This document shows, piece by piece, positions 29,201 to 63,300 of a stretch of DNA of 64,000 nucleotides (position 1 is the first letter of the stretch; each line of letters begins with the position of its first letter). Position numbers and translations under genes: made by a program. The notes beneath the pieces are model-generated. The model made no database searches, was not told the DNA's origin, and worked only from the letters and a program-made list of their open reading frames with translations. Origin of the DNA: Aselliscus stoliczkanus (taxonomy: Eukaryota > Chordata > Mammalia > Chiroptera > Hipposideridae); contig CM066728.1 of assembly GCA_033961575.1 (NCBI GenBank), positions 34,596,352-34,660,351 of the forward strand, given 5' to 3'.

Positions 29201-32200
29201 TTTCCACCTTTCGTAAATAAAGCTATTATGAACACATATATAAGTTATGTTTTGAGTCCTTCATGGGCTAGGAGCTAAGACCTCCATTTAGGATCTGTTG
29301 AGTCCCTGCTTTCAATTCTCCTGACTATATTATATATCTACAGAGTGCAATTTCTGCATCATATGGTTTTAACTTTTTCAGGAACCCCAAACTTTTCCAT
29401 GGCAGCTGCACCATGTCACATTCCCACCAGCAATGCGTGAGGGTTCCAATCTGCCTCCACACCCAACACTTGTTATCACCAACACTTGTAACCTTCCATT
29501 TTTTTGTTGTTGTTATACTCATCCTAATATGAAGTGATATCTCATGGTAGGTTTTTTAAAAAGATTTTATTGGGGAATTGGGGAAGGGGAACAGCGTTGA
29601 GGAATCAGGGAAGGGGAACAGACAAGTTGCTGTCCTTTTGTTCTTTAGTCTAGTTGTGGAGGACATTGCTTCATTGGCCTATGTTGGTGTTATCATTGCA
29701 CTCTTCCTGGGTGAGGCAGTCGCTCGGCAGCCTCTGGATGGCTGCTCATGGCAGCTCATGAAAGCTCACACCCACTGCCGGCCAGCCCCACTGCAGCCTA
29801 CGCCATTGCCAGCAACTCACAGCAGCCCAGCTCCAGGTCCAGCTGTTGTTCACCATCTTAGCAGTAGAGGGTACAGTGTCACTGGCCTTCATATGTGGGA
29901 TATGAACCGGGACTGCTGGCATCCCAAGCCAGCTCTTAACCAACGAGCCACTCGGCCAGCCCTAGAATGTTTTTGAACTTAAGTGACCATCAACTTACAA
30001 TAGACTGCTATAAACATAGCTAGGTATATGAAGTGCCTGGTAACCACAAACCAAAAACCTATGAGAGATATACAAGAAATAGAGAGGAATCCAAAGACAA
30101 CACTATAGAAAATCATCAACATACAAGAGAGCAAGAGACTAAGAAAGGAACAGAGAAGAACTACAAAAACAATCAGAAAATAATAAAATGGCAAAAACTA
30201 CATACCTATCAATTACTTTAAATGTAAATGGATGAAATTCTCCAATCAAAAGATGACTGGATGTGGTACGAAGATGTGGTATATATATACAATGGGATAT
30301 TAATCAGCCATAGGAAAAAAAAATGAACTTATCATTTACGACTACATGTTTGGACCTAGAGGGTACTATGCCAAGTAAAATAAGTCAGACTGGGGCTAGC
30401 CGAGTGGCTTGTTGGTTAAGAGTTGCCTTGGGAGCGTGGGCTCTGAGCAGCACGGCTGCCAGTTCAGATCCCACATGGGCCAGTGACACTGTCCTCTATA
30501 GCTAAGATGGTGAACAACGGCTCGATCTAAAGCTGGGCTGCTGTGAGTGGCCAGTGACAAGATAGGCTGCAGTGGGGCTGCAGTGCGCTGCCATAGGCTA
30601 CAGTGAGTGGCCAGCAGCCAGCGTGAGCACCAGCAGCTGCTGTGAACTGCCGTGAGTGGCCGTCCAATGGCCAGAGAGCAACTGCCTCACCCAGGAAGAG
30701 CGCAATGACAATACCAACATGGGCCAGTGAAGCAATGTCCTTCACAACTAGACTAAGAACAAAAGGACAGCAACTTGTCTGCCCACCTTGCCCAATTCTC
30801 CAATGCTGTTCCCTTCCCCCATTTGTCTGTTCCCCTCCAATTCCCCAATAAAATCTTAAAAAAAAAAAAAGTCAGACTCACAAAGACAAATACCATGATT
30901 TCACGTATATGTAGAATCTAAAAAACAGAACAGAAACAAACTCAGAAGTACAGAAAACATTTTGATGGTTGCCAGACTGGGGGTGAGGCAGTTCAGGAGC
31001 TGGGTGAGAAGGGATTAAGAAGGACAAATTGCCAGTTATAAAAACAGTCACGGGGATGTAAAGTACAGCATAGGGAATATAGTCAATAATATTGTAGTTA
31101 CTATGCATGGTGTCAAATAGGTACTAGACTTACCAGGGTGATCACTTCATAAGTTATATAAATATCTAATCACTATGTTGTATACCTGAAACTAATATAA
31201 TATTGTATGTCAATTGTAATTGAAAACTAAGAAATAAAGAGTAGAATGGATAAATACTGGTATAATCAAACACTAGAATACAGTACACTAATGAACCTTT
31301 CATTAACAGCAAATACCCAAGTCAAATGTCAATTCCTATTACTTACTACACTGGATTTATAGCAAAGCTAAAGGTTAAGGAGTCTCACCCCGCTTCACAT
31401 CACAAGTCAGGAACACAGGAGCCTTTGACCAACAATACAGAGCTCTGGGAATGTGAATTTGCAATTCCTCAATTCAGATACATTTCAAAGTCAAATGATC
31501 TAAAGTTATGAAAATCTTTAAATGTGCTATCACTCACCTTTGCTTTTAAAAGGTCAGACATTTCAGAATAATTAGTATATGGCTTTTGCTGCAGTGGTTG
31601 CCTGTGCTTTACCCACTGGTCACCAGGAGAACCGTCTGGAAATAATTGCTGACTGTGGCGGAATTTGGTTCGACTATACCAAGATTTAAAAAAAAATAAA
31701 AAGCAGATCAGAAAATTTTCACTTATAGTTCTTCCAACACCTTGATAGTTTATCTCACAGACTACAAATATTGCTTTGCTATTTATTGTCTATCTCCTTC
31801 TAATACGTGTAAGTTCCATGAGGGCTGGGGCTCTTGCCTGCTTTGTCCACGATCCTCAGCAGGTAGAATAGTATCTGGCATTCACTGTTTCTTGAATTAA
31901 TTCTGTTATGTTTAATCACAAACTTTTCTAAACTATCCACACCATCTCCTCCCTACAAATGATTACTTTTAAAAAATCTGAAGAAAAGAATTCTTCCTAA
32001 ATTTAGTTGAAATAAAACAAATGTAACCGGATTTTCCTCCTTAATAGGAAGACAACTCCTATTCTTAGTAGGATCCTTCAAGTATAGAATTTGACCCTGC
32101 ACAGGTCATTTATAGGCCCCCATCCATGCTGGAAGAGGATATGATAAATTAAGCTAAAGCAAAAAAAAAGGGACCTAAGACAATGGCTGAACAAATTAAA

Positions 32201-33376: not shown

Positions 33377-36300
33377 AAGAATTGGTACCCTCTTGTGTAC
33401 ACTTTCAAAAAAATGTGCCTGAAGCTCCTTTCCAACTCCAGTTAACCTTTTTCATCTCATCAAAAACTCTTGGAAAAAAAAAGTTTCTACTATCTGACCA
33501 GTAACAAAATAGTACCTATAAAAGGAATCCAACACCTCCACAAACTTTAGAAGCAAAATGCTACTGTATTAAAAACTATTAGAAAGTCAGAATCCTGTGA
33601 ATGTATTATTTTACCTCAATTTTTCCACCGTGGGTTTAGCTGGTGTGCTACTAGCTGAGGAAAATCCATTGTCGCTGTCTGAGGAATCCCCAAATCTTCG
33701 AGAAAGCCAGTCCCTTAATGGTCTATGGAAACATTAAGAATTCACTTTTTTTTTTTTTTTAGCTGACCCATCCTGCCACCTGTTGGCAGCTTAGCGGCAA
33801 CTTAGCTCGGACTGGGCGTCGAACTGCTGTTGCTCAGAGCTCAGCTTGCTCTCTTGAGCGAGCTCTTAACGAACTGAGCAACTCAGCTGGCCCTAAGAAT
33901 TCACTTTTAAAATTGGCTAAAGAGGGCCGGCAGAGCGGCACGGTGGTTAATAGCTGGCTTGGGATGCCAGTGACCCGGGTTCAGATCCCACATATGAGGG
34001 CCAGTGACACTGTCCTCTAAAAAAAAAATAAAAATAAAAAAAATAATAAAATAAAATAAAATAAATAAATGAAATTGGCTAAAGAAACTTACAATCAAAA
34101 TTATGAAGGTTAGTTTTGTATTTCAAGAAATACGAACATACCTGATAAAGGGAATAGCCATAAAAAATTTGTTAGGTGCCAAACCAAGTTTGGATTTTGG
34201 GGTCATATCATTCCTATGGCAGGGCAATTTCTCTATGGAGAACCACTCAATGTTCTGAAACACAAAAAAAACAATCATTTAGTTAATTATTAAGGAGTTT
34301 CTAAAAGCAATTTCCTATTTTATTCAATTGGGCTACTGTCCAGCAACCTGAAAATACTTTCAATTACATACCCGAATTTCTCTTCTGGTTTTTGGATTAA
34401 ATTTTGTATCCTTTGGAATTCCTGGAATGATGTACAAACGAGCAAGCTGGTCATTGATTCGAAGTTCAATGTAATCATCCTTACAAATATAATCTTTGAT
34501 ATCAAAACCAGTTTCTTCAAAGACCTGGAAATAACAAATTTGGATGATGATTTTCAATTTTTTCTGTCAGACCTCCAATTCATTAAAATTTATTTCAAAG
34601 GCAAACATTCAGAAATATGTAGGCAATTAAAGGCATGAAAACATTAGGCAGGAAATCAGAGTACTCCCTGGGCTAGTACTAACTCAGCCTCTACTGAACT
34701 GTTCCACGATGGAAAAACCTCTTTACACATTTAAGCCTAAGTTTCTTCACCTATTTAATGAAGGGACATGTGTGATATTGTGATTTACAAAAAGAAATAT
34801 ATATTTGGTCTTTGTCTCCCCTTTCTAAAACCCTTGGAATTTCCTAAGATCAACAAAGATGACTTTTATTAAGTTAATGAAGTGGCGTTTGCAACATACC
34901 TGAGAAAAATAGGATTAGCTGTCAGGAAAACTAACCAAGTGAGAAGGTGGGAGCCCTCCAGGAAGGGGAGAGGCTAGAGATTGGGCTCAATCGCAAATGG
35001 CCAATGGCTTAAACTACCATGCCTCTGTCATGAAGCCTCCATAAAAACCCAAAAGAACAGAGTTCTGAGAGCTTCCAGGTTGGTGAACACATGGAGATTT
35101 GGGAAGAGTGGTGCTCTAGGAGAAAGCATGGAAGCTCCACGCCCTTTCCCCATCCCTTGCCCTATGCATCTCTTCCATCTCGCTCTTCCTGAGTTATATT
35201 CTTTTCTATAATAATTAACCAGTAATCTGTAAGTAAAATGTTTCTGAGTTCTGTGGGCTGCCCTAGCCAATTAATCAAACTCAGGGGGGAGGGGGGGGCA
35301 CTGGAACTTCTAATCTATAGCCAGCATAATGTCCTCAATGTTGCCAAAAATGGCAGGATTACTTGCCATTGTTTTTTATGGCTGAGTAATATTCCATTGT
35401 GTGTGGAATATTACATATATGCAAAATGATATATATACCGGGGGTGCCCAAAAAATGTATACACATGATTTGTATTCAACATTTGTTATCAGTATATATT
35501 AAATATTACCATTTTAAGTGTTTTTCTTTTCTTAAAATGTGTATACATTTTTTGGACACCCTCTGTATATATCACAACGTCATCTATCAACGAACACTTA
35601 GGTTTTTTTCCTTGTCTCGGCTATTATAAATAATGTTGTTATGAACACTGGGGTGCAGATATCTGTTCAAGGTAATATTTTCACGACCTCTGGATAAATA
35701 CCCAGAAGTGGAATTACCGGATCATAAGGTAGTTCTATTTTTAATTTTCTGAGGAACCTCCATACTGTTTCCACAGTGGCTGCACCAGTTTAGAATCCCA
35801 TCAACCATGTACAAGGGTTTCCTTTTGTCTACATCCTCACCAGCATTTATTATCTCGTCTTTTTGATAACCGCCGTTTTAACAGGCATGAGGTGATATCT
35901 CATTGTGGTTTTGATTTGCATTTCCGTTTTCATGTACTTGTTGATGATTTGTACATCTTTGGAAAAACAGCTAATCAGGTCTTTTGCCAATTTTTTCAAT
36001 TGGATTTGTTTTTGCTAAGCTGTATGAGTTATTTATGTATTTTGGATATTAATCCCTTATATTAAATAGTTTGCAAATATTTTCCCCATTCCATACATTG
36101 ACTTTTTACTTTGTTTCTTTTGCTGTACAGCTTCTTAGTTTGATGTAGTCCCACTTGTTTATTTTTTATTTTGTTGCTTGTGATTTAGGTATCATATTCA
36201 AAAAATCATTGCCAAGATCCAAGTCAAGGAGCTTTTTTCCTATGTTTTCTTCTAGGAGTTTCATGGTCTCAGGTTTACATTCAAGTCTTTAATCCATTTC

Positions 36301-39300: not shown

Positions 39301-42300
39301 ATCCTATTTCTGCATCATCCTCTTTACAATATAGCATATAACACTCATCAGATGGAAGTCATAAATAAGAATCCAGTGCACAATCTATCACAAGGTGCTA
39401 TACAATCAATGCCAAGCAAATGATAAAGACGACAGCTGCTCAGAGACAACTGAGGGAGAGAGCTCACTAGTTTCATTTAAAAATAAATAAAATGTAAGAA
39501 TGAACTTTAGAAATTATTCACTCTAAACCTCATTTTACAAAGAAGTAACTCAGGTCCTGTATACAGAGCTAGCTGATGGCAGTCCTTGAGAAAAAAAAAA
39601 CAAAAAACGGGGTGGTGGTGGTGGTAATTAGAGCTGGATCTGGAAAGGTACCTAGACAGGATTTGAAAAGTCAGGAAGAGATGACTTTCCAGGTAGGGAA
39701 ATAATATAAGCAAAAGTTTAAAGGCTGAAACAAACAGTCAAATTCAGTGTACAAAGAATAAATCCTTTTGACTGTGAATAAAGATAAATTTAGGAAGGAC
39801 TAAGTCTTGTGTTGGAAGTAGATTTCAATACTTCAAGGATTAAACTTCATCCTATAGATTGTGGGAAGCTAGAGTAGGTTTTGAGCAAGAAATGTGAATT
39901 TCTTTAAAAGTCCAAATTCTGCACTTGTCTGGAAGTCAAGATTATAAACATAAAACAAGTGTTGTAATAACTAAAACGTTTTACCAATTGCATATCGAAT
40001 TCTAAAAGGAAAGGTAAAGATATCAAAAAGAAAAAAGTTCAAGAGACATGGAGTAAAAAACAGGCAATGAAAGAAAATGGAAACAAGGGAAGAATAAATT
40101 ATAGGGAGATGTGATCAAGAGAATCAACCGTTGTGTTATAAGTTACTTCATGTAGTTAAGTTCTGGAAAGAAGTTAAGATGGTCCAAACAAGGCTCTGGC
40201 TAAAAATACAAATTTGTATCATAACCACCAAATGCTACTATGTTTCAAACTACAATAACTCACCTCTCTAGCAGCACAATCATGAGGAGCTTCTTCTTTA
40301 TTTACTTTTCCTTTTGGAAATCCCCAGCCTGATTTCGCTAGGTACCCCTGAACAAGTAGTACCTACAAAACAAGCAGAAATTAAAATAAGTAACTTATTC
40401 TTTCCCATGCTCCTTTCTAAAAGTCAAAGGTGTTTTTCTTGTTACTTCAGGTAACTGTTATCACCAATAATTTTATACAGTACTTGGTTTAAATATCTCC
40501 TATCAGTTTGAATATACTACTACTGTGAAGACATTCTGCCCATTTTAAAGTATTTTTTCAACAATGAATTAAAAGTGACACCTCTTGGGCAGGCCGAGTG
40601 GCACATTGGTTAAGAGCTGGTTTTGGGATGCCAGCAGCTCCGGTTAGGATCCCACATATGAGGGCCAGTGACACTGCCCTCTACAGCTAACAGCTCCACT
40701 TAGAGCTGGGCTGTGCAAGTCCCGGGGACGGTATAGACTGCAGCCCCTACTGCAGTGGGCTGCCATAGGCTACAGTGAGTGGCCGGCAGCCAGTGTGAGC
40801 GGCCGGCAGCCAGCGTGAGCTGCCGATAGCCACAGTGAGGGACCATCCAGAGGCCGGCGACCGATCTGCTTCATCCAGAAAGAGCGCAATGACGATACCA
40901 AGATGGGCCAGTGAAGCAATGTCCTCCACAACTAGACTTAAGAACAAAAAGACAGCAACTTGTCTGTTCCCCTTCCCCAATTCCCCAAAGCTGTTCCCTT
41001 CCCCCAATTCCCCAATAAAATCTTTAAAAAAAAAAAAGTGACACCTCTTTGCAATAAGCCATATATCAACAAGTATAAAATATTAAGACACATAATGCAG
41101 GGCCGGCCAAGTGGCGCGGTGGTTAAGCGCTGGCTTGGGAAGCCAGCGGCCCGGGTTCGAACCCACATATGAGGGCCAGTGACACTGCCCTCAAAAAAAA
41201 TAAAAATAAAAAATAAAAATAAAAAAAAGACACATAATGCAGACAAAATATGCAAAATCTGACCTGTTAGCACTAAAAATCTGAAACCTCAATTCAGAAC
41301 ATTATAGAAATAACACATTTTATTAGTAGGATGAAAACAGTTGATCATTTCATTAAAAATCTTTGATTTTGTTACACTCACATTTTCAAGTGTCTCATCA
41401 AGAATAATTGCACCATATGTTGGTACTCCCATTTTATATTCCTTCCATTCATCCAAAACTTTTTCCACATCTTCACCTTGAGGCAGCAAAAATGGACAAT
41501 GACTGAAGAGTATACATAGTGTTAAGGAAGTTACTTTCTCCCTGAAAACAGCTTGAGTACTTATATACAGAAAGACACCTATTTAAATCAACTATGTTTT
41601 ATATGAACTTACTCAAATCTTCACCTCACTTAAGTTTATCCCTGTTTTGTTTTTTCACATTTATTTTCTCTTAATCAAGTCACTGCTAACTTCTGCATTT
41701 AGCCTAGAAACAAATCAAGTCAGCTTTGCGTATTCACAGTCCTGGGTCCCTAAGTTAACACAAAATCAGGACCACGTGTACGACTCAAATACTTCTCATT
41801 CATCCTATCAGGAGTCAACAGATTCTGAAACAAGTAGCAAGAAGCAAGCACAGTGCACATATACACTGGTTAAGAGGGAGAAGCTGTCAGAACAAGTTCC
41901 AGTGGCTAACTGTGGGAAGTAGAGCTAGGGAATGCGGTATACCACGCTATATGCTGTATTTCTTTACTAGGTAACGTGTGGCTTTGATCATCAAAAATAT
42001 TTTTAAGGTGACGATTATATAGAGAAAGGTGAATCTGGGTATTAAGGAAAATCTAGCCTGGTTCAAAAGAAAATGGGCATGCCCCTCCCCAAAACTGAAA
42101 AGAGTAAAATTATTTTTTTTATTTATTTTTTTAGCAGAGCCATCCTGCCACCTGTTGGCAGCTCAGCAGCAGCTCAGCTCGAACCCATGACCCTGTTGCT
42201 CAGAGCTCATACTCTTGAGCGAGCTCAAACAACTGAACCACTCGGCCGGCCCTTAAAATAATTTTTTTAAAAAGTAAAGCCTAGGGCTGGCCGAGTGGTG

Positions 42301-45300
42301 CGGTGGTTAAGCGCTGGCTTCGGAAGCCAGCAGCCCCGGTTCAGGTCCCACATATGAGGGCCAGTGACACTGCTTCAAAAAAAAAAAAAAAAGGAAAGCC
42401 TAAAACTGTAAAGTATATGCTAAGGCTTCCAGTACTCCATGTTGTCAAATGCCTCATCACTACCACACTGTTATTATGAAAAGTGTGGGGAAAACTGTAA
42501 TTTGATAGTGTTTCTCAAACCAAGGACATAATCTTAAGGGTCCTCAAATCCTCTATGAAAACATAATATTCTGTGTTTCTATTCTCATGTTAATCTAGAA
42601 ACATGCAATATAAGCATATTTCCCATCATTTGGATGATCACAAGTATCAAGAAATATCACTTGATTTCAGAGACCACATTGGTACTAGTATTACTTTAAC
42701 TATTTTAGGCTACTAAAAACAGAAGAAATCTAACATGCAAATGATGCATAAAGGTGAAATATCTGAACAGAATACAGAAAGAAAGGTTTTATAACAGAAT
42801 AACGGAAGGTGGCAGAAAACTGGAGTACAGGCATGTCTAAACACCCTCAAAGAAGTCAGTATTATATTCACATTGCGATTCATGGTTTGGTTTAAACAAA
42901 AGCATCACAATAAATTCATTTTATGAAAATAAATTCTGTATGTCCTACAGTTTTGTATTTAAAAATTTGTTTTGGTTTTATAGTTGTAGTAAGAAATAAA
43001 GAGGCCCTCAAAAATACCAAAGAGGTCCACTATCTATGACAACCTTGTATTTAAAAGACAAGCATTAGGTTAATCTCAATATAATTATTCCATGCTTCAT
43101 TTGGGGAGGGAAAACGGATCAAGTTCGGATACAACATTAACAATGTCATGAAGCCCTATGGCTGCTAAGATTCTGAAGGTGATTTTCCAATAAAAGTCTG
43201 GCTTCAGATGTTTAATAAAATCCCTTATGTGTTTTTAAAGTTATCACAGATACTTTTTAATCTAAGTATAAATTTTAAATAAATGGGTTTTTCCATTAAA
43301 AATTTAACCATAGTAAGAAACGGAAAAATACCCAGAAACAGAGACAGTATCCAACAGTTCAGACAGTAAATACTTATCCAGTTTTTGTCTTTCTCTTCCT
43401 TCACCCTATACTGTTCCTAATGAATTTCAAGGTACATCAATGTCCTCATTTTTCTACACATTAAACTTTAAAAACAGTACTAGTAGGTTGGCCAAGTGGC
43501 TCAGTTGGTTAAGAGCTTGCTCAAGAGTGTGAGCTCTGAGCAACAGGGTTGCCAGCTCGATTCCTGGCCGGAGCTCACCTGCCATTAACTGCCAACAAGT
43601 GGCAGGATGGCTCAGCTAAAACAAACAAACAAAGAAACAAAAACAGTAGTAAAGGTTTAGCAAGAGAAATTACATCAATTGACTTAACTCTGGAATCTAT
43701 TTACACTCTTTGCTTATCCATTCTTTTTTCTATCCCAAAACTACAACAAATTAAGTGAGCTGTCTGAACCAACCACCTAGAGTTCAAGATACACTTGGAT
43801 TTAAGATTGGAAAGAACCTGTTAAGTATTTGGCTCAAGTCCACACAATTAGCAACAGACCCAAATCCACAATGACATCAATTTGCCCACTGACAACTCGT
43901 CATCCTCCTTCATACTTAAGAGTACATAAAAGTAATTCAATTCAAACATCGGAGTGGAAAATTTTTAAATACCATTTTTATTTAATGAGATATTTAATCA
44001 AAAATTTTGATTTTTACATGCACTGAATAATTATCATTTCTAATTTTTACTAAAATTCTTAATTACTGATTTTCTTAACCCCCCAACCAAATTATTTTGA
44101 GTCTTGAATCTGGGGTACTGGGCCTTACACAGTAGAGAGAAAGATAGGTTCCACTGATTAAAGAATGTAAGAATTTAAAGCTTGTCCGCTTGTATTACAT
44201 GTGTTTTCTTTTTTTTTTTACAATTCAGTGAATTTTTTTTATATACACTCTTTTTATTCTAACGTTTTTTGCATAAACATGAAAAATCTGTTTTAGATAT
44301 AAACCGTTATTAGATAATAATCTCCACCCAAAATCTTACCGTTGTCTTAGATGATGTCACGTACCCGACACACATCGGGCCTCAGTTCCTACATTCCTTG
44401 TCTTTCACATCCACCCCCGACTTCCAGGACCAATTCCCACAGCAAACATCACTAGAACTACTCTGGCAGTTTGATTAAAGTAAAACATCTTAACCATACT
44501 TTTTTATGGCATTCTTTTAATTACTCACACTATATCACTATTCCACATCAATCTGTTTCCCTTTCTCCATCTTAGCACCCTCTTGCTTTTATTTTCTTCC
44601 CTAACAGTGGTCCACCAGTTTGATCAATCCCCTAGCAATTCCCAAAATCCCTTTGCCCTGCTGTTCTCTGAATATAGCTCCCTGGCAAAACTTCAACCCA
44701 GAAACAAATCCAGGATACCCACATTGCTGAGTGCTTCCTGAAGAAAAAAAATCACAAGACTGTGTACAATTTACGTAAAAGAAAATAGAGGCATAGAAAA
44801 AAAGACCCGCAATTTGCCCACGGTTGCATGGCTAGTAATGCCAACCCAAGGAATCTGCCTCCAGAACTCATGCAAGTTAACTTTTATTCTATTCAGTCTC
44901 TCCACTTCAATATCCAAAGGTACCACAAACCCACTTGTCCATAACTGGACCCATCATTCCCCCACAAGATTTCTCTTCCTTTATTTTTCTACAAATGGAA
45001 TAGCATACCCATCCACCCACCTGCTAAACCAGAAACCAGAGCACCACCCTTAATTCTTTCCTCCACTTCTCTTCAGACAGCCAACTTAATATGAATTTCA
45101 CCTCCTAAGTATCATTCAAATTTAACCTCTTCCCTTCACTTCTATCACAGGTGTCCATCTCTAATTCATAAATTAGTGAAAGAGCATCTTAACTAGGTTC
45201 CCAGTCTCATCTTCCCCCAATTCACCATCTACACTATTCCAGAGTTCTTTCAAAACAGCCCTAGAGGGCCGGCCGAGTGGCGCATTGGTTGAGATGGTTT

Positions 45301-48300
45301 GGGGATGCGAGCGGCCCCAGTTCAGATCCCACATATGAGGGCCAGTGACACTGCCCTCTACAGATAACAACAGCTCCACCTGGAGCTGGGCTGTGAGAGC
45401 CCCTGCGACGGTGTAGGCTGCAGCGGGCTGCCATAGGCTGCAGTGAGTGGCCAGCAGCCAGCGTGAGCTGCCAATAGCCACAGTGAGCGACATCCGGAGG
45501 CTGACGACCGATCTGCCTCATCCGGGAAGAGCGCAGTGATCACAATACCAACATGGACCAGTGAAGCAACGTCCTCCACAACTAGACTGAAGAACAAAAG
45601 GACAGCAAGTTGTCTGTTCCCCTCCCCCAGTTCCCCAATAAAATCTTTAAAAAAAAAACACCCCTAGAGAAAAAAGCACATGTTGCAAAACATTAACAAA
45701 GGGTGAATATATAAGGTATGATGGCAGTTCACTGTAATGTTCTTTAAACTTTAAGCTCAAGTTTTTTCGCAAAATAAAAAGCAAAGCTTCATTTTATTTA
45801 TTTTTTTGAATTTTAAATTTTATTTTATTAGTTTCAGGTGTACAACACAATGCAATAGTTAGGCTCTTTACCCCCCAAAGTGAAAACCCCCCCTCCCCCA
45901 GTTCGCCACCCTACTCCCCCCCCATATCATACATATCCATCACAACTCCCCTGACGCCCCTCCACAGTACACTCCACATCCCGTGACCATCCACATATTC
46001 AGTTGCAGTTGGCATACAATACTATACAACATCAGCTTCAGGTGTACAATGCAGTGATCAAGCCTCTACTCCATCCATGAAGTGGTCTCCCTAACAAGAC
46101 ATGTGACTATCTGACACACAACAAAATTTTTACAACATTATATTCCCCGAACTGATTCATATCCCTGTGGCAATATTGTAGTTGTCTATTTATGCTGTCT
46201 AATCCCTTCCCCTTCCCCCCCATCCCCACCCCCTTCCCAACTAGCAACCCTCAGTTTTTCCACTACATCTACGAGTCTGTTTACTTTGATCGTTCACTCA
46301 GCTCTTCAGACTCCACACACAAGTGAGATCACATGGTACCTGCCCTTCTCCAACTGACTTATTTCTCCCAACATAATAGTCTCTTCACAACATCATCAAT
46401 TACATTCCCAGAACTGCCCCCATATCCCTGCGGCAACATTGTAGTCCCACATACACTGTCCAAAAACATTCCCCCTCTCCCTCTTCCCCACTCCCTCCCA
46501 GCCAGCAACCATCAGTTTTTCCTTTATATCTGCTTGATATGACTTCAATCTTCTTAAATTGTCTCTCTGGGTTAGTTTGTTTACCCCTTTCTTTTGTTTA
46601 AAAAAGCCCTTTTAACATTTCTTGCAATGCTGGCTTGGTGGTAATGAATTCCTTAAGCTTATTCTTTTCTGAGAAGCTCTTTATTTCTCCTTCAATTTTA
46701 AGTGATAGCCATGCTGGGGAGAGCAATCTTGGTTGTAGGCCTTTATTTTGTGTCACTTTGAGTATCTCCTGCCACTCCCTTCTGGCCTGCAGAGTTTCTC
46801 TAGACAAGTCAGCTGTTAGTCTAACAGGAGTTCCTTTGTATGTAACCAGCTGTCTTTCTCTTGCAGCCTCTAGGATTCTGTCTCTGTCTTTAACCTTTGC
46901 CATTTTGACTATGATGTGTCTTGGTGTGGACCTGTTTGGGTTCAGCTTGTTTGGAACCCTCTGCACTTCCTGGGCATGTATGTTGATTTCCTTCACCAGG
47001 GTGGGGAAGTTTTCAGTCATTATTTTTGCAAATACATTCTCGACCCCTTGCTTCTTCTCTTCTCCTTCTGGTATCCCTATGATTCGAAGGTGGTTGCGCT
47101 TCACCTTGTCCCATAGGGCTCTTAAACTATTTTCATTGTTTTTTATTCTTTGGTCTTTTTGCTGTGCCAACTGGGTGAGTTCTGCTATTTTATCTTCCAA
47201 ATCGCTGATCCGCTCCTCTGCTTCATCTACTCTACTGGTGATTCCTTCGAGTGTGTTCTTCATTTCAGTTATTGTATTCTTTAGTTCTAACAGGTTGTTT
47301 TTTATGGTTTCCCTATCCTTCTTTATGTCCTCGCTAAGTTCCTTAAACATTCTTATCATCAGTGTTCTAAACTGTGTCTCTGAAAGGTTGGATCCCTCTG
47401 TTACATTTGGTTCCATTTCTGGAGGTTTCTTCTGATCTTTTACTTGTGACATGTTTCTTTGTTTCCCCATTCTGGCTGTTGCTCTGGGATAGCTTTGATG
47501 TATTAGATAGATCAACAAGAGGGCCCTGGCTGGATCACACAGGCACACAGCTCACGGCCCAACACTCCCAGGAAAACTCCCAGTCTCAGCCTGTCCTAAT
47601 CAGCCGCTTGCAGACCAGGCCTAGCAGCCCAACAACCAATCACCAGCCTGACAACTCTGCAAGCCGAGTGCAGAGAGCAGAGACCCCAGGCGGCTTGCGC
47701 GCTCCCGGGTCTCAGTGAGCAGCCGTTGGAGCCGGAGGGCACCCGCCCTGCATTTCCCTGGCAACGCAGTATAAGCTGGGCAGAGGGTGGGGATCCAAGG
47801 CCGCAGGCGCACGCACACGCACACGCGCACACGCACTTCTGCGCCAATTCCACCAGACCAATGAGGTCTCAGACCTGATCCTTCGTGGGAGGGCTCAAGC
47901 CCGACAAAATGGCGTCCTCCCTACACCACTCGCGTGCAAGCTCCGCACCACGGGAACAATAGTCTAAAAACCTTTGCACCAAAGGTACTCAGTTCAGTCC
48001 GTCCCCGCAGGCTCCCAGCTCACACAGCCACTCCCTCCACCAGGAACCAGGCAAGTGCTCACCGGCGAGCAAGCCCAGGCTCCGGCCCCACTGGTTCTCC
48101 AGCCGCTCTTAGCCTCACCGAGCTGAGCAAAGAGAGTCCTTACTAATTTACTGCCAGTTATCTTAGAACTTCTCTTCCCGGCAAAGGAGCTCTGGGCTGG
48201 TGAGCTTGGGGTGCGGCCGGAGGGTCTCTCCCCCAACCGGAGAAGCCTCTCCACAGCTGGGACCTCCCTCACGGGGCTCGCCCTCTCTCGTCTCTGCCCG

Positions 48301-51300
48301 TCCTACCAGACCTGATGCGGCTTCCTCTTTAAGTTCTTCGTTTAGTGGTTCTGTTCCTCCAGTGTTCCGGGGACCTCCAGGGTTGAATGCTGTATAATTT
48401 GCTTGTAATTTTGGTGTGATCCTGGGAGGCAGTTAGCACAGTGTCTGTCTATTGCACTATTTTACCGGAAGTTCCTCAAAAGCTTAATTTTTTAAAAAAA
48501 AAACCTCTTGGGGCCGGCCGAGAGGCTCAGATGGTTAAGAGCTCGCTCAAAAGTGCGAGCTGAGGAGGCCGGCCGAGTGGCATGGTGGTTAAGCGCTGGC
48601 TTGGGAAGCCAGCAGCCCCGGTTCAGATCCCACGTGTGAGGGCCAGTGACACTGCCCTCAAAAAAAAATAAAATAAAAAGAGTGCGAGCTGAGCTCTGAG
48701 CAACAGCAGTTCGATGCCCAACCCGAGCTGAGCTGCCATTGAGCTGCCAACAGGTGGCAGCATGGCTCAGCTAAAGAAAAGAAAAAAAACAACCTCCTAT
48801 ATTCTAGTACTCTTATAAAGACCAAACAAACATGGCCTACATGACCCTTACATGCTTTAGCCCTGACTTACTCTCCATTGTCCCACATCACTTGTTCTTT
48901 AAAATGCAATCATATTAACTTTTTTCACTTTCACACAGACCATTATCACAGACCACTTCCTCCAAAGGAAACTCTTCTGTCTGGGCTGCGTATTCCTCTC
49001 CTGTGTTCTTACTGAGCACCGTCCCTACCCTATCATAACTTACATAACTGCTCCACAATTTCCTTTCCTGCCTCCCCCTCCCATCTTCGTGAAGACAAGG
49101 ACCAATCCTGCCTTGTTCACTGCATAATGCCTGGCACAGAGGAAGCACTGCTCTTTAATCAAGTCTACCACATTAACAATTAAGATTTTGGTTCTCCATG
49201 TAACTGAATTTAAAGAAACATAACTAAAACAGGTTTTTTTTATTTTTGTAATAGCAAGGAAGTTTAAAACTCATGGCATACACATACAGAATCTTATCCA
49301 GAACCCCAAAGTTCATCAAGTTCCTCTGACAGAACAGTCAATGGAAAATACACCAAAACCACAGAAGAGAATTTGGCAGTTTTCACCATGTTTCTATAGA
49401 TTATAGCTTCTTAAAAGTAAAGTTTTCTATGATTTCTCCACAGAACCTATCGCCAAGCCTTTAACAAAGAATGCTGAATAGTACTTCTATTCCGCTTTGA
49501 TTCCTCATTTACTTCCCCATATTTAACCAGCAAAATAGCTTAATCATTTCTTCCACTGACATGTCTCTTCAGTCTTTTCTTTGTGGTCCCTCTACTACGG
49601 TTCAGGGCAGTTCAAGTATCGTAACAGTCTGCCCTAAGGTTCAACCTATCCTGCCAAATAGATAAGCCTTGAATACAATTTTTAAATGATCTGAGTAATA
49701 TTCTTTAGCCTTGCTCAAAAACTTTCTATGGTTAGCAGTTATCTAGAACAAACAGTATTAATTCATTTTTCTACAGGTTCTTTAGGGGGTTCCTTACTTC
49801 ATGGGGCTCAAGGAAAATTCTAGGGAGTTGAGTATGAGGGTTATTTTAGGTCACCTACTCCAACTCTAGTGTAATACAGTGAACTTGTGGAAATTCCACT
49901 TGAACACGATTTGTGGTTTAAAACAATGACTTACAGAATAAAATAGCACTTTGGCTCAAGATTTTAAAACCCACAAATCCCCCCTATATATCTTCCATTC
50001 ATATCTCCTATTATATCCCCATAAGAGCCCTTTGCTCCATTCAAACTTCTTTGTTTCCTGAGATATCCCTTTACAATTTTGCTCACTTCATTTTCTTTAC
50101 ATGGAACACAGTCCCCACTCCTATATTTAGAAAATAGTCCTATATCCCCTTAAAATTATAGATTTGCTTAAAATCGTTCCACGCTTTTTCCAAATTCTAA
50201 AAAATTTACTATCAGGACCATCTGCAAATTGTCAAATTTTTTGCCCTGTGAATAACCTTTTATAATTTTAAATATTCATGTGAATCTTTTATTTTTTTAT
50301 TTTTTTTTGAGGGCAGTGTCACTGATCCTCATATGTGGGACCCGAACTGGGGCCGCTAGCTTCCACAAGCCAGCGCTTAACCACCGCGCCACTCAGTCAG
50401 CCCTCATGTGAATCTTTTATATCTAATTATGCAAGTTTCTACTTTACCTGTAAATAGGGAAGGGGAGGGAGCTTCCTTAAAGACAAGGATTTCATTATTT
50501 GTCACAAAACCAAAAACACTGCTTTGAACACAGTAAGTATTCAATAATTATTTAAGGATTTCTATCCCAGAAAGGTAGTAATCTGATTATAAATATCATC
50601 TGGTTAAATCGAACAGCAAAAGGAAAGTAACAAACAGATCAATTGTAGAAATAGGCTATCTATTTTTGAAAGAAAAGAAAATCAAATTTAATTCTAATCA
50701 TCAATGCACATTTCAAGGAGTCCTCTACCTAAAAACAAGAATACTGTTAAATTATCTACTATTTATATATGACAATTTTTAGAAATCAAGTATGTTTTAT
50801 CTAATTGGTTATAAATCTGAAAGACAAGCAAGTGGAAATTTGTGCTAAAATATTTTACTGACAAGAATGAACGACAGTCATTATAGTAATAAAAAGGATA
50901 TCAGCTTTAGCAAAGTCTCTTATCCCACACTGAGGTAATCCTGGTGTGTTCTGCATGTAGAAATCCAAGTAAAACCAATGGGCAAGTTCAATCTGAAAAC
51001 ACACTCGAATAGCATTGTCTCTTTCCTCGCTGGGAATATGCAAAATAAATCGGCTGTCAAAAACAAAAACATACAAAAATTACATATACAAACCATAACG
51101 ACTTATTTTAACCTATTTAATTGCTTCATCCCTGACCCACCACCATAGAAAAGGGGCCAAAAGCCATGCTAATCAAGGGTGCAAAATTTGGGGGAAGTTA
51201 CCATAAGGAAGATGAGTCTAGGGGGAAAAAAAAGGATATCACATGCAGCTCACTCAGAATTTTTTTTAAGAGGTCTTTTATCCTCTACTCACAAAACAAA

Positions 51301-60300: not shown

Positions 60301-63300
60301 ACATATAATTTGCAAAATATGTTAATCAACTGTTTGTTATCAGTAAAGCTACCTGCAGTTAAGTTTTTGAGGAATCAAGTTATATGCAGATTTTTGACTG
60401 CCAGAGGGTTGGCGCCCCTAAGCCCCACAACCCCCATGTGCTATTCAAGGGTCAACTGTACATTCTTTTCAGATTTTTCCTGTGCATACACACACATATA
60501 CACAAAACATTTAAAAATTTGTTTTAACAAAAGGCATCAAATGAGTAGTACATTACACTCAGTAGGAGATTCTGTGCATCTTTTCAAGACACAAATATTT
60601 TCCCCTCAGTTTACTGTTTGCTAATTTCCTTAGGAATTTCTAATGGCTGCACAGTATTTCAGTAAATGAAATGTTGTATATTAAACTATCTAAAAATAAC
60701 ATTCCATGTCTTAGGTTATAAGCGGTCTAATGGTCACAAAGTCCCTATACTGAAATTTTAAATCTCTTGCTCTAATTTTTCACATCAAAATCAATCTCAA
60801 GTTTTAACTTTGTTCAAAATATATGGTCAATTACTGAAGTAGACAAGATTAGCAGGAATATGTAATTTATCAAAAATAAAATTAGCACGAAACAAAAAAA
60901 CCTTCTTATATATATTAATAAACAGAATTGGGGAAAATACAGACTAAAAACAAGAATCAAGACCAAACTCAAAGATCAAGAGGTGCTTAAAAACACCAAA
61001 AGAAATGCAGAAAAATTAACCTTTTCCAACTTAAGCTTCACTTTTATAGAAATGAGAAATTACATAAAATTCTAAGAGTAAAAATTCCTGAAAAAGCCCA
61101 TGGTCAAAAAGCCTGAATTGTTAACATTTAAAAATATTTAAATTAATAAAAGATATTATAAATATTAACTCAAAAACGGCATTATTTTTAAAACCTGAAG
61201 TTTTAAAAAAATGGTTATTTGGCACTCATGGGATGTAAAGTACGGCATAAGGAATAGTCAATAACAGTGTAATAAAAATGCATGGTGTCAGATGAGTACC
61301 TGACTTATCGGGGTGATCACTTTTGTAAGTTACAAATGTCTAATAACTTTGTTGTGCACCTGAAACTAATATGATATTGAATGTCAACTATAATTGAAAA
61401 AAATTTTTTTAAAGAAATGGCTATTTTTGGTTCATTATTAGTTTATCAAGTATCTACCCCTAATTTGTAAATACATCATCCTTACTTATATAGCCAAAAC
61501 ATAATTGCAAAATAATTCTTAAAGGAAAAAAGATGTTACTCTATTCTAAGATTTTTGTAAAACATCTTAAATACACTGTGTGGTAAACCAAGTAAGAATT
61601 CTTAACACTCAATAGATGTGTAACATAGTGTTTACAAACACAACATAAGTAGTTTGCGAGTAAACAGGTCTACACATAAAATCAATCACCTTCACAATGG
61701 TTGATATTTCTTTAAATGATGTAATCCTCCATAACATACAAAATAAACCCAACACTAGTTAAGATTAGATGCCTATAAAAAGTATGATTACCATCTTTTT
61801 CTAAATAAACCTCCATTCCTATTAATCCATAGATAATTATTGCTCCTTTCAAAATACAGATTTTATTTTTTTCTAACTATGAAATGCACATCCTTTTAAA
61901 AACCTGGAAAACATGAATAAGAAAATAAAATTCATACTCCCACTTTTGGTGTATGTTCTTCTAGTCATTTATTCATACAGACATACACATGTATCAAATC
62001 TTTTTTTCTTAAAAAATTGGGATCACAGAAAATAAGTGTCTCTTAAGTGGTTCATTTGAATGTATCTTATTCCAAAAATTAGAATACCGTCACCAAAGAA
62101 ATACAGTGACATTCTTATTTGTTGCAAAATTATTCTATTCATTTATCTACGTGTACCTTTCTTTTGTGAGGTTTAAAATGTTAGATTTGATTTTCTATTA
62201 CATCCACCTGGTGTAGGTATTGTAGAGAATAAGGCATAGGTTTGAAATCTTGATTTTTTGAATCAAGATCAACGTGACCTTGTGTAAATTACAACCGCTC
62301 TGAATCTGTTTGTCAGATGACGATTTAAATAACTCTACCTACCAAATAGGGTTGTTTTGAGGATTAAATAAAATATGTCAAAGGAGAACGCAGTGCCTGG
62401 TATGCAATAGTAACCCTACAAACATTAGTTCTTTCTCATTTTAAAAAAAAAGAAAAAAACCGCCTGAATGAGACACGACTACTAAAAAGTCAGGCTTAGA
62501 GACAAAAATATACTAACTATAATTGAAAAGGTGTTATTTTATCAGAGTTTTTAGGGCCGGCCGAGTGGCTTGGTGGTTAAACACTGGCTTGGGAAGCCAG
62601 CGGCCCCGGTTCAGGTCCCACATGAGGGCCAGTGACACTGCCCTCAAAGAAAAAAAAAAAAAAAAAAGAGTTTTTACTCACTTGTAATTTCAATTATTTC
62701 ACCACCCACTTTACATCTGGCGACCATCAAAAAATTTAGTTAGGGGAAAAAAAATATATTTTAACTTCATTGTACACGTGTTGGGCTAGCTGAAATCATA
62801 CCTAAGAAGAAGAAAGAATGCAGAAATTTTCTCTCGTAAAAGTAACCCGTGCGTTAAAACCTTGCGGTTGAGAATGTCCTTTAAGAAGGATAATTACGTG
62901 AGGAGCAGAAAAGCAGCTCTAGATTTTGTTCCCCCCTGCCAATGTTAAGTTTCGGGATGAACAAGAGAGCAATTCTTTATAGCAGTTACAGAAAAATGCC
63001 ACGGGGGAAAGGGTAAGTTTGTAAACTGCTCCCTGCGTAGGTCTGGGGACGTGGGATTCTAAGATTGAAAACCTTGAAGGCTTTCCACATACTTGGGAAA
63101 TGAGGCGGTGGGAGGAGGGACAAACGGCCTGTGCGAGTCAGAGAGGCAGAAAAGGCAACAGGAGGGGGAGGGGGCCGCTGAAACACGCGAGGACCCTGCT
63201 TCCGCGAAGTAGCTCCGCTTACGGAAAAAGAAAACACTTGGGGAACTAAGCAAAGGAGGAAAGAAGCCCCGGGGCTCCGCGAAGAAGGATGGAAGGGGCG

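Follow-up and report, generated by a model that had tools for sequence, protein, structure and literature searches.

The window analysed here is a 64 kb stretch (64,000 nucleotides) of the Aselliscus stoliczkanus genome that carries the DCP2 gene. Intron 2 of DCP2 starts with ATATCCTT, carries TTCCTTAAC at 41529-41521 and ends in AC, and these AT-AC termini and internal sequence bear out the initial annotation, which had placed a retrotransposon within a U12-type intron of this gene. The retrotransposon is a complete-looking LINE-1 (L1) derivative of 2683 bp (45796-48478, minus strand) and it lies on the same strand as DCP2, in sense orientation within intron 2. The span originally assigned to it, 45783-48491, does contain a real element, but it also takes in both of the 13-bp repeats that flank the element proper. 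The coordinates of these features are collected in Table 1.

Table 1. Features of the L1 derivative and of the DCP2 intron that holds it, in window coordinates.
Feature	Position	Strand	Remarks
5' TSD, AAAATTAAGCTTT	48479-48491	-	T10-AA precedes; compatible with an L1 endonuclease TT/AAAA site
5' region, probable L1 5'UTR	47471-48478	-	1008 bp; from composition and position
ORF1	46598-47470	-	290 codons, open; trimerization, RRM-like and dsRBD-like domains
Spacer, ORF1 stop to M1	46554-46597	-	44 bp; candidate inter-ORF remnant or L1 3'UTR start
M1, first L1 3'UTR block copy	46399-46553	-	G-rich run 46471-46499; rests on match to M2
ORF2 C-terminal remnant	46306-46380	-	24 codons and TGA; DNA likeness from 46393
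M2, second block copy	46137-46295	-	G-rich run 46204-46238; L1 3'UTR likeness continues to about 45998
Repeated distal L1 3'UTR end (…TGTACACCTGAAACTAATAAAATA)	45821-45889	-	49 of 69 columns identical to in-window L1 3' end
A-rich tail	45796-45820	-	AATAAA starts at 45829 and 45802
3' TSD, AAAATGAAGCTTT	45783-45795	-	1 mismatch in 13 against 5' TSD
DCP2 intron 2, AT-AC U12-type	41510-50901	-	holds the element in sense orientation

The flanking repeats had been described as 13-bp target site duplications (TSDs) with a single mismatch, and this description holds. A match as good as that between AAAATTAAGCTTT and AAAATGAAGCTTT arose 23 times among 3000 pairs of flanks with matched A+T content, 7 times among 3000 unmatched pairs and 6 times among 3000 shuffles of the element's own flanks. 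TSDs and an A-rich tail are hallmarks of L1 target-primed reverse transcription, and the presence of both points to mobilization by L1. The motif with which the sequence ahead of the 5' TSD is compatible, TT/AAAA, is described as that of the L1 endonuclease (PMC13174262).

No other stop-free stretch in the six frames of the window is as long as the frame that contains ORF1 (317 codons). The 290-codon ORF1 that had been called within it on the minus strand was recovered as an open frame from ATG to TAA, and its product is an L1 ORF1 protein: comparison with Pfam matched the L1 RBD-like (E-value: 8.9e-26), dsRBD-like (E-value: 5.6e-20) and trimerization (E-value: 3.1e-7) domains, and residues 76-287 match the solved L1 ORF1p 2ykp (E-value: 7.2e-62). 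The C-terminal end of the protein resembles the ends of its relatives. Among the best 120 of 1528 matches listed, identity is never above 71%; by identity, the closest named relative among them belongs to Rhinolophus ferrumequinum (71%, covering 77% of the query), and the top relatives by score are fused proteins of Cnephaeus nilssonii (52-56% identity). From these best 120, 65 relatives with lengths of 270-330 aa were kept, and positions with at least 90% conservation among them were defined as conserved. Eight of the 68 conserved columns are changed in the ORF1 studied here; the median among the relatives is three, and 61 of the 65 have fewer changes.

The region upstream of ORF1 is probably an L1 5'UTR, judging from its composition and from where it lies relative to the TSD. 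The G+C content of 47471-48484 is 0.58 and its CpG observed/expected ratio is 0.54, compared with 0.33 in the window once the element is removed and up to 0.81 in the best windows elsewhere. Presumably, 47471-48478 resembles mammalian L1 5' ends, and an internal promoter is predicted to lie within it. This CpG level does not decide the age of the insertion without a family consensus.

The region downstream of ORF1 had been described as a 3'UTR, with no ORF2. It is correct that there is no full ORF2: 1.8 kb is too short to hold one, the distance from the ORF1 stop to the 3' TSD is just 802 bp, and no long frame is found in this interval. Unlike an autonomous LINE-1, the element has no ORF2 with endonuclease and reverse transcriptase, and all that is left of this gene is 24 codons. 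What the description missed is that this C-terminal remnant lies downstream of ORF1 together with a 3'UTR block that is present twice (M1 and M2). As a yardstick for this region we used an old L1 found elsewhere in the window (30.24-31.24 kb, plus strand), which we take to be of Laurasiatherian type and which was read across an inserted SINE; for the peptide and DNA comparisons that were counted, the SINE was excised at its own target duplication. The ORF2 remnant and 3'UTR taken together align to this L1 with a score of 176 (255 of 370 ungapped positions identical), a value reached by none of 1000 shuffles (maximum 50), and the 3' end of the element is thus derived from L1. With autonomous LINE-1s of this type the element shares ORF1p domains as well as this 3' sequence, and the doubling of the 3' blocks sets it apart.

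The DNA of the ORF2 remnant matches the in-window L1 by itself, with 58 of 84 ungapped positions identical and a score of 51 (maximum 39, none of 1000 shuffles as good). At the peptide level, the remnant was matched in one of three frames, with a score equalled by 1 of 2000 shuffles; following a rougher excision of the SINE, which broke the frame, the best frame was equalled by 72 of 1000 shuffles, and this comparison was not counted. A search of the 24 residues against the PDB gave no chain at E-values up to 10. We assume that the remnant (46306-46380) resembles the human ORF2 C-terminus.

M1 and M2 align with a score of 130 (the best of 300 shuffles reached 41), and 118 of 152 ungapped positions are identical, giving a divergence of 22.4% (bootstrap 15.8-28.9%). 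Because a direct comparison of M1 with the in-window L1 falls short of significance (equalled by 13 of 300 shuffles), the L1 nature of M1 rests on its match to M2. The distal segment at 45821-45889 matches the 3' end of the in-window L1 with a score of 52, which none of 300 shuffles reached (maximum 41). The spacer between the ORF1 stop and M1 has a weak likeness to L1 sequence past the ORF2 stop: the match to the in-window L1 was equalled by 21 of 1000 shuffles, and that to the element's own second copy by 315 of 1000. Tandem Repeats Finder reported no long-period array in the 3' region because the 3' duplication is too diverged, and a search of Rfam with 44000-50000 gave no match. As the ORF2 remnant lies between two copies of a 3'UTR block, ORF2 must have been lost from an L1. 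Immediately beyond M1, the ORF2 portion has the sequence ATGTTGTGA, and M2 continues at the equivalent point with ATGTTGTAA; the string shared at these two joints fits, and does not prove, an origin by template switching or recombination.

When the element was compared with the rest of the window using BLAST, no second copy was found, and there were four short matches only (22 to 61 bases). The matches near 31.2 and 61.35 kb are positioned in L1 3' ends and that at 34.0 kb falls in an A-rich SINE tail, and these were rejected as sister copies. Scans of viral contig and genome contig collections (not bat genomes) gave no relative of the element.

The founding paper on mammalian HAL1 (half-LINE-1) elements is reportedly that of Bao and Jurka in 2010. 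HAL1s are described as L1-dependent derivatives that retain ORF1 only and have a poly(A) tail and TSDs (PMC5322556), and several origins have been ascribed to them (PMC5753468). Young HAL1 families are recorded in marmoset and guinea pig, and the table that gives young families in the same source has no HAL1 among those of Myotis lucifugus or Pteropus vampyrus (PMC3183009); in rat, HAL1 activity has been reported (PMC8535693). Among the matches listed from the literature on HAL1s and bat LINEs, a scope that did not extend to Bao and Jurka 2010, there was no report of a bat HAL1. Like the mammalian HAL1s, the element has L1 ORF1 only, an A-rich tail, TSDs and a need for L1 enzymes. The doubled 3'UTR block that flanks an ORF2 remnant may set it apart from the HAL1s as these sources describe them. 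Chimeric LINE-1 insertions offer a second comparison, as these also have same-orientation joins inside one TSD pair, ascribed to RNA ligation or template switching (PMC13174262). They differ in that they consist of L1 joined to other RNAs, and the terms HAL1 and L1-L1 are absent from the main text of that paper (PMC13174262).

Our preferred interpretation, to which we give a probability of roughly 0.62, is that this is a HAL1-type non-autonomous LINE-1 derivative whose 3' end combines at least two L1 3' ends and which L1 copied in trans. It seems to be a further member of an established class, the half-LINE-1, with an unusual pieced-together tail. The initial annotation had reached the same class, and a HAL1-type anatomy (L1 ORF1 alone, L1-type 3' sequence, an A-rich tail and TSDs) was upheld, but the ORF1-to-3' junction is more complex than it claimed. 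Since the element encodes neither endonuclease nor reverse transcriptase, both would have come from another L1. The observations on the side of a HAL1 are the intact ORF1 with L1 domains and a native-like end, the TSDs, the tail, the position of the remnant between 3'UTR blocks, the divergence between those blocks and the young HAL1 families of marmoset and guinea pig. Those on the other side are the absence of a second copy from the window and the scanned non-bat collections, the lack of any protein beyond 71% identity among the best 120 of 1528 matches, the changes at conserved ORF1 columns and the weak homology directly past the ORF1 stop. The most economical origin is that ORF2 disappeared from the interval separating the ORF1 terminus from the L1 3'UTR and that L1 3' ends were joined.

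The strongest alternative, although we consider it somewhat unlikely, is that a single L1 copy lost ORF2, either at insertion (through a spliced or internally deleted RNA, or a template switch) or later, and left no descendants; its parent would be an L1 already bearing doubled 3' blocks. The lack of a sister copy in the window and in the viral and genome contig collections (not bat genomes) is consistent with such an event, and the altered conserved ORF1 residues suit a dead copy. Two features argue against it. First, ORF1 is kept to its native stop and the sequence resumes at or near an L1 3'UTR, an arrangement that random breakpoints would seldom produce; that the deletion ends within 44 bp of the ORF1 stop would be more understandable if ORF1 had been retained for use. 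Second, a simple deletion in a standard L1 leaves the 3'UTR block ahead of the ORF2 remnant unexplained.

A host-domesticated ORF1 gene comparable to L1TD1, which is a known domesticated ORF1 (PMC4161310), would account for an open ORF1 within the intron of a gene, but we regard it as highly improbable because ORF1 is embedded in a whole element with TSDs and a tail and is changed at conserved columns. Long interspersed repeats are generally prone to misassembly, but an artefact in which an ORF2-bearing stretch was dropped or two repeats were misjoined is equally hard to credit, given the matching TSDs on either side, a window that contains no N, and copies M1 and M2 that are 22% diverged and not near-identical.

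The age of the insertion was approached by modelling how long ORF1 would stay open without selection, with a transition bias, an indel share and a rate of 2.2e-9 substitutions per site per year as assumptions. The probability of an open frame is 0.27-0.42 at 1% divergence, 0.07-0.18 at 2%, 0.02-0.08 at 3% and 0.001-0.013 at 5%. As ORF1 is still open, the insertion has probably diverged by about 3% at most, unless the frame was maintained by selection. The proposal that the insertion is recent is therefore favoured by the open frame, but the eight altered columns among the 68 conserved ones of ORF1 and the mismatch in the TSDs speak against a very young age. The divergence between M1 and M2 exceeds by a factor of more than two the few percent compatible with an open ORF1, which makes it likely that the element received its 3' duplication from ancestors that were replicating; at least one such duplication seems to predate the insertion. 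Its age does not show whether these ancestors still had ORF2.

If the element is a HAL1, an ancestral L1 would have been stripped of the inter-ORF region and of almost the whole ORF2, with ORF1 kept to its native end. The composite 3' end would have been put together from pieces of two or more L1 3' ends, possibly by template switching or recombination, stranding the 24-codon remnant between two 3'UTR blocks. RNA transcribed from the 5' region would yield ORF1p (both the promoter activity and the function of this protein are predictions), and, by analogy with established L1 biology, ORF1p trimers would coat the element's own RNA. Target-primed reverse transcription would depend on ORF2p, with its endonuclease and reverse transcriptase, provided in trans by an autonomous L1, and the element would descend from a replicating ORF1-only lineage.

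G-quadruplexes have been an idea for L1 3'UTRs; among papers on G-quadruplexes, nothing was found on L1 3'UTRs. It is conceivable, but in our view quite unlikely, that a bat HAL1 lineage was founded when L1 3' ends recombined or the template was switched from one to another, and that in this lineage the doubled G-rich blocks improve the RNA as a substrate for L1 enzymes in trans and the element's own ORF1p gives it its own RNP. Intact LINE ORFs have been reported in Rhinolophus ferrumequinum (PMC10239488). In the six bats studied in the same source, LINE and SINE accumulation dropped in recent times, which counts against strong recent activity (PMC10239488).

Half-LINE-1s are natural tests of which L1 proteins are needed in cis and which can be borrowed. 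A one-off would be ordinary genomic debris. If a bat family exists, ORF1-only elements would have originated one more time, and the joints around the ORF2 remnant, flanked as it is by doubled blocks, could be dated and would show how such elements arise.

The host gene was also compared with its relatives, using eight DCP2 proteins chosen from at least 120 matches listed. The comparison makes a bat host likely but does not single out a family, since the window's DCP2 protein lacks two residues common to the Hipposideros and Rhinolophus proteins. It is 97.1-97.7% identical to the proteins of four bats (Rousettus, Myotis, Hipposideros and Rhinolophus) and 93.8-96.2% identical to those of manatee, porpoise, takin and rat.

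The old L1 in the window, which served as the yardstick for comparisons with the ORF1-only, probably HAL1-type element in DCP2 intron 2, is split by a SINE-bearing insertion with AGTCAGA repeats on both sides. A further, short L1 3' end scored 80 against the 3' region of the element, whereas none of 300 shuffles exceeded 41.

Features in the window
Feature	Position	Strand
3' end of old L1, including ORF2 tail	30240-31240	+
SINE-bearing insertion	about 30390-30876	
SINE copy	33920-34070	
DCP2 AT-AC U12-type intron	41510-50901	-
G-quadruplex-like runs	46204-46238, 46471-46499	-
Frame antisense to ORF1	46635-47435	+
SINE copy	48510-48700	
Short L1 3' end	61200-61400	+

AT-AC ends such as those of the DCP2 intron may mislead annotation, as the Rousettus DCP2 entry P0121 carries additional residues at the place of this intron that resemble intron read-through. 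The 266-codon open frame (TTG start) antisense to ORF1, the 290-codon frame of the element, is probably a shadow of ORF1 codon bias. Each 3'UTR block of the element contains one G-quadruplex-like run, and the remainder of the window has 6 per strand. The SINE copies, recognised by eye, begin with a tRNA-like stretch and carry ends of the GGCCGGC type; one of them sits shortly upstream of the element, at its 5' side.
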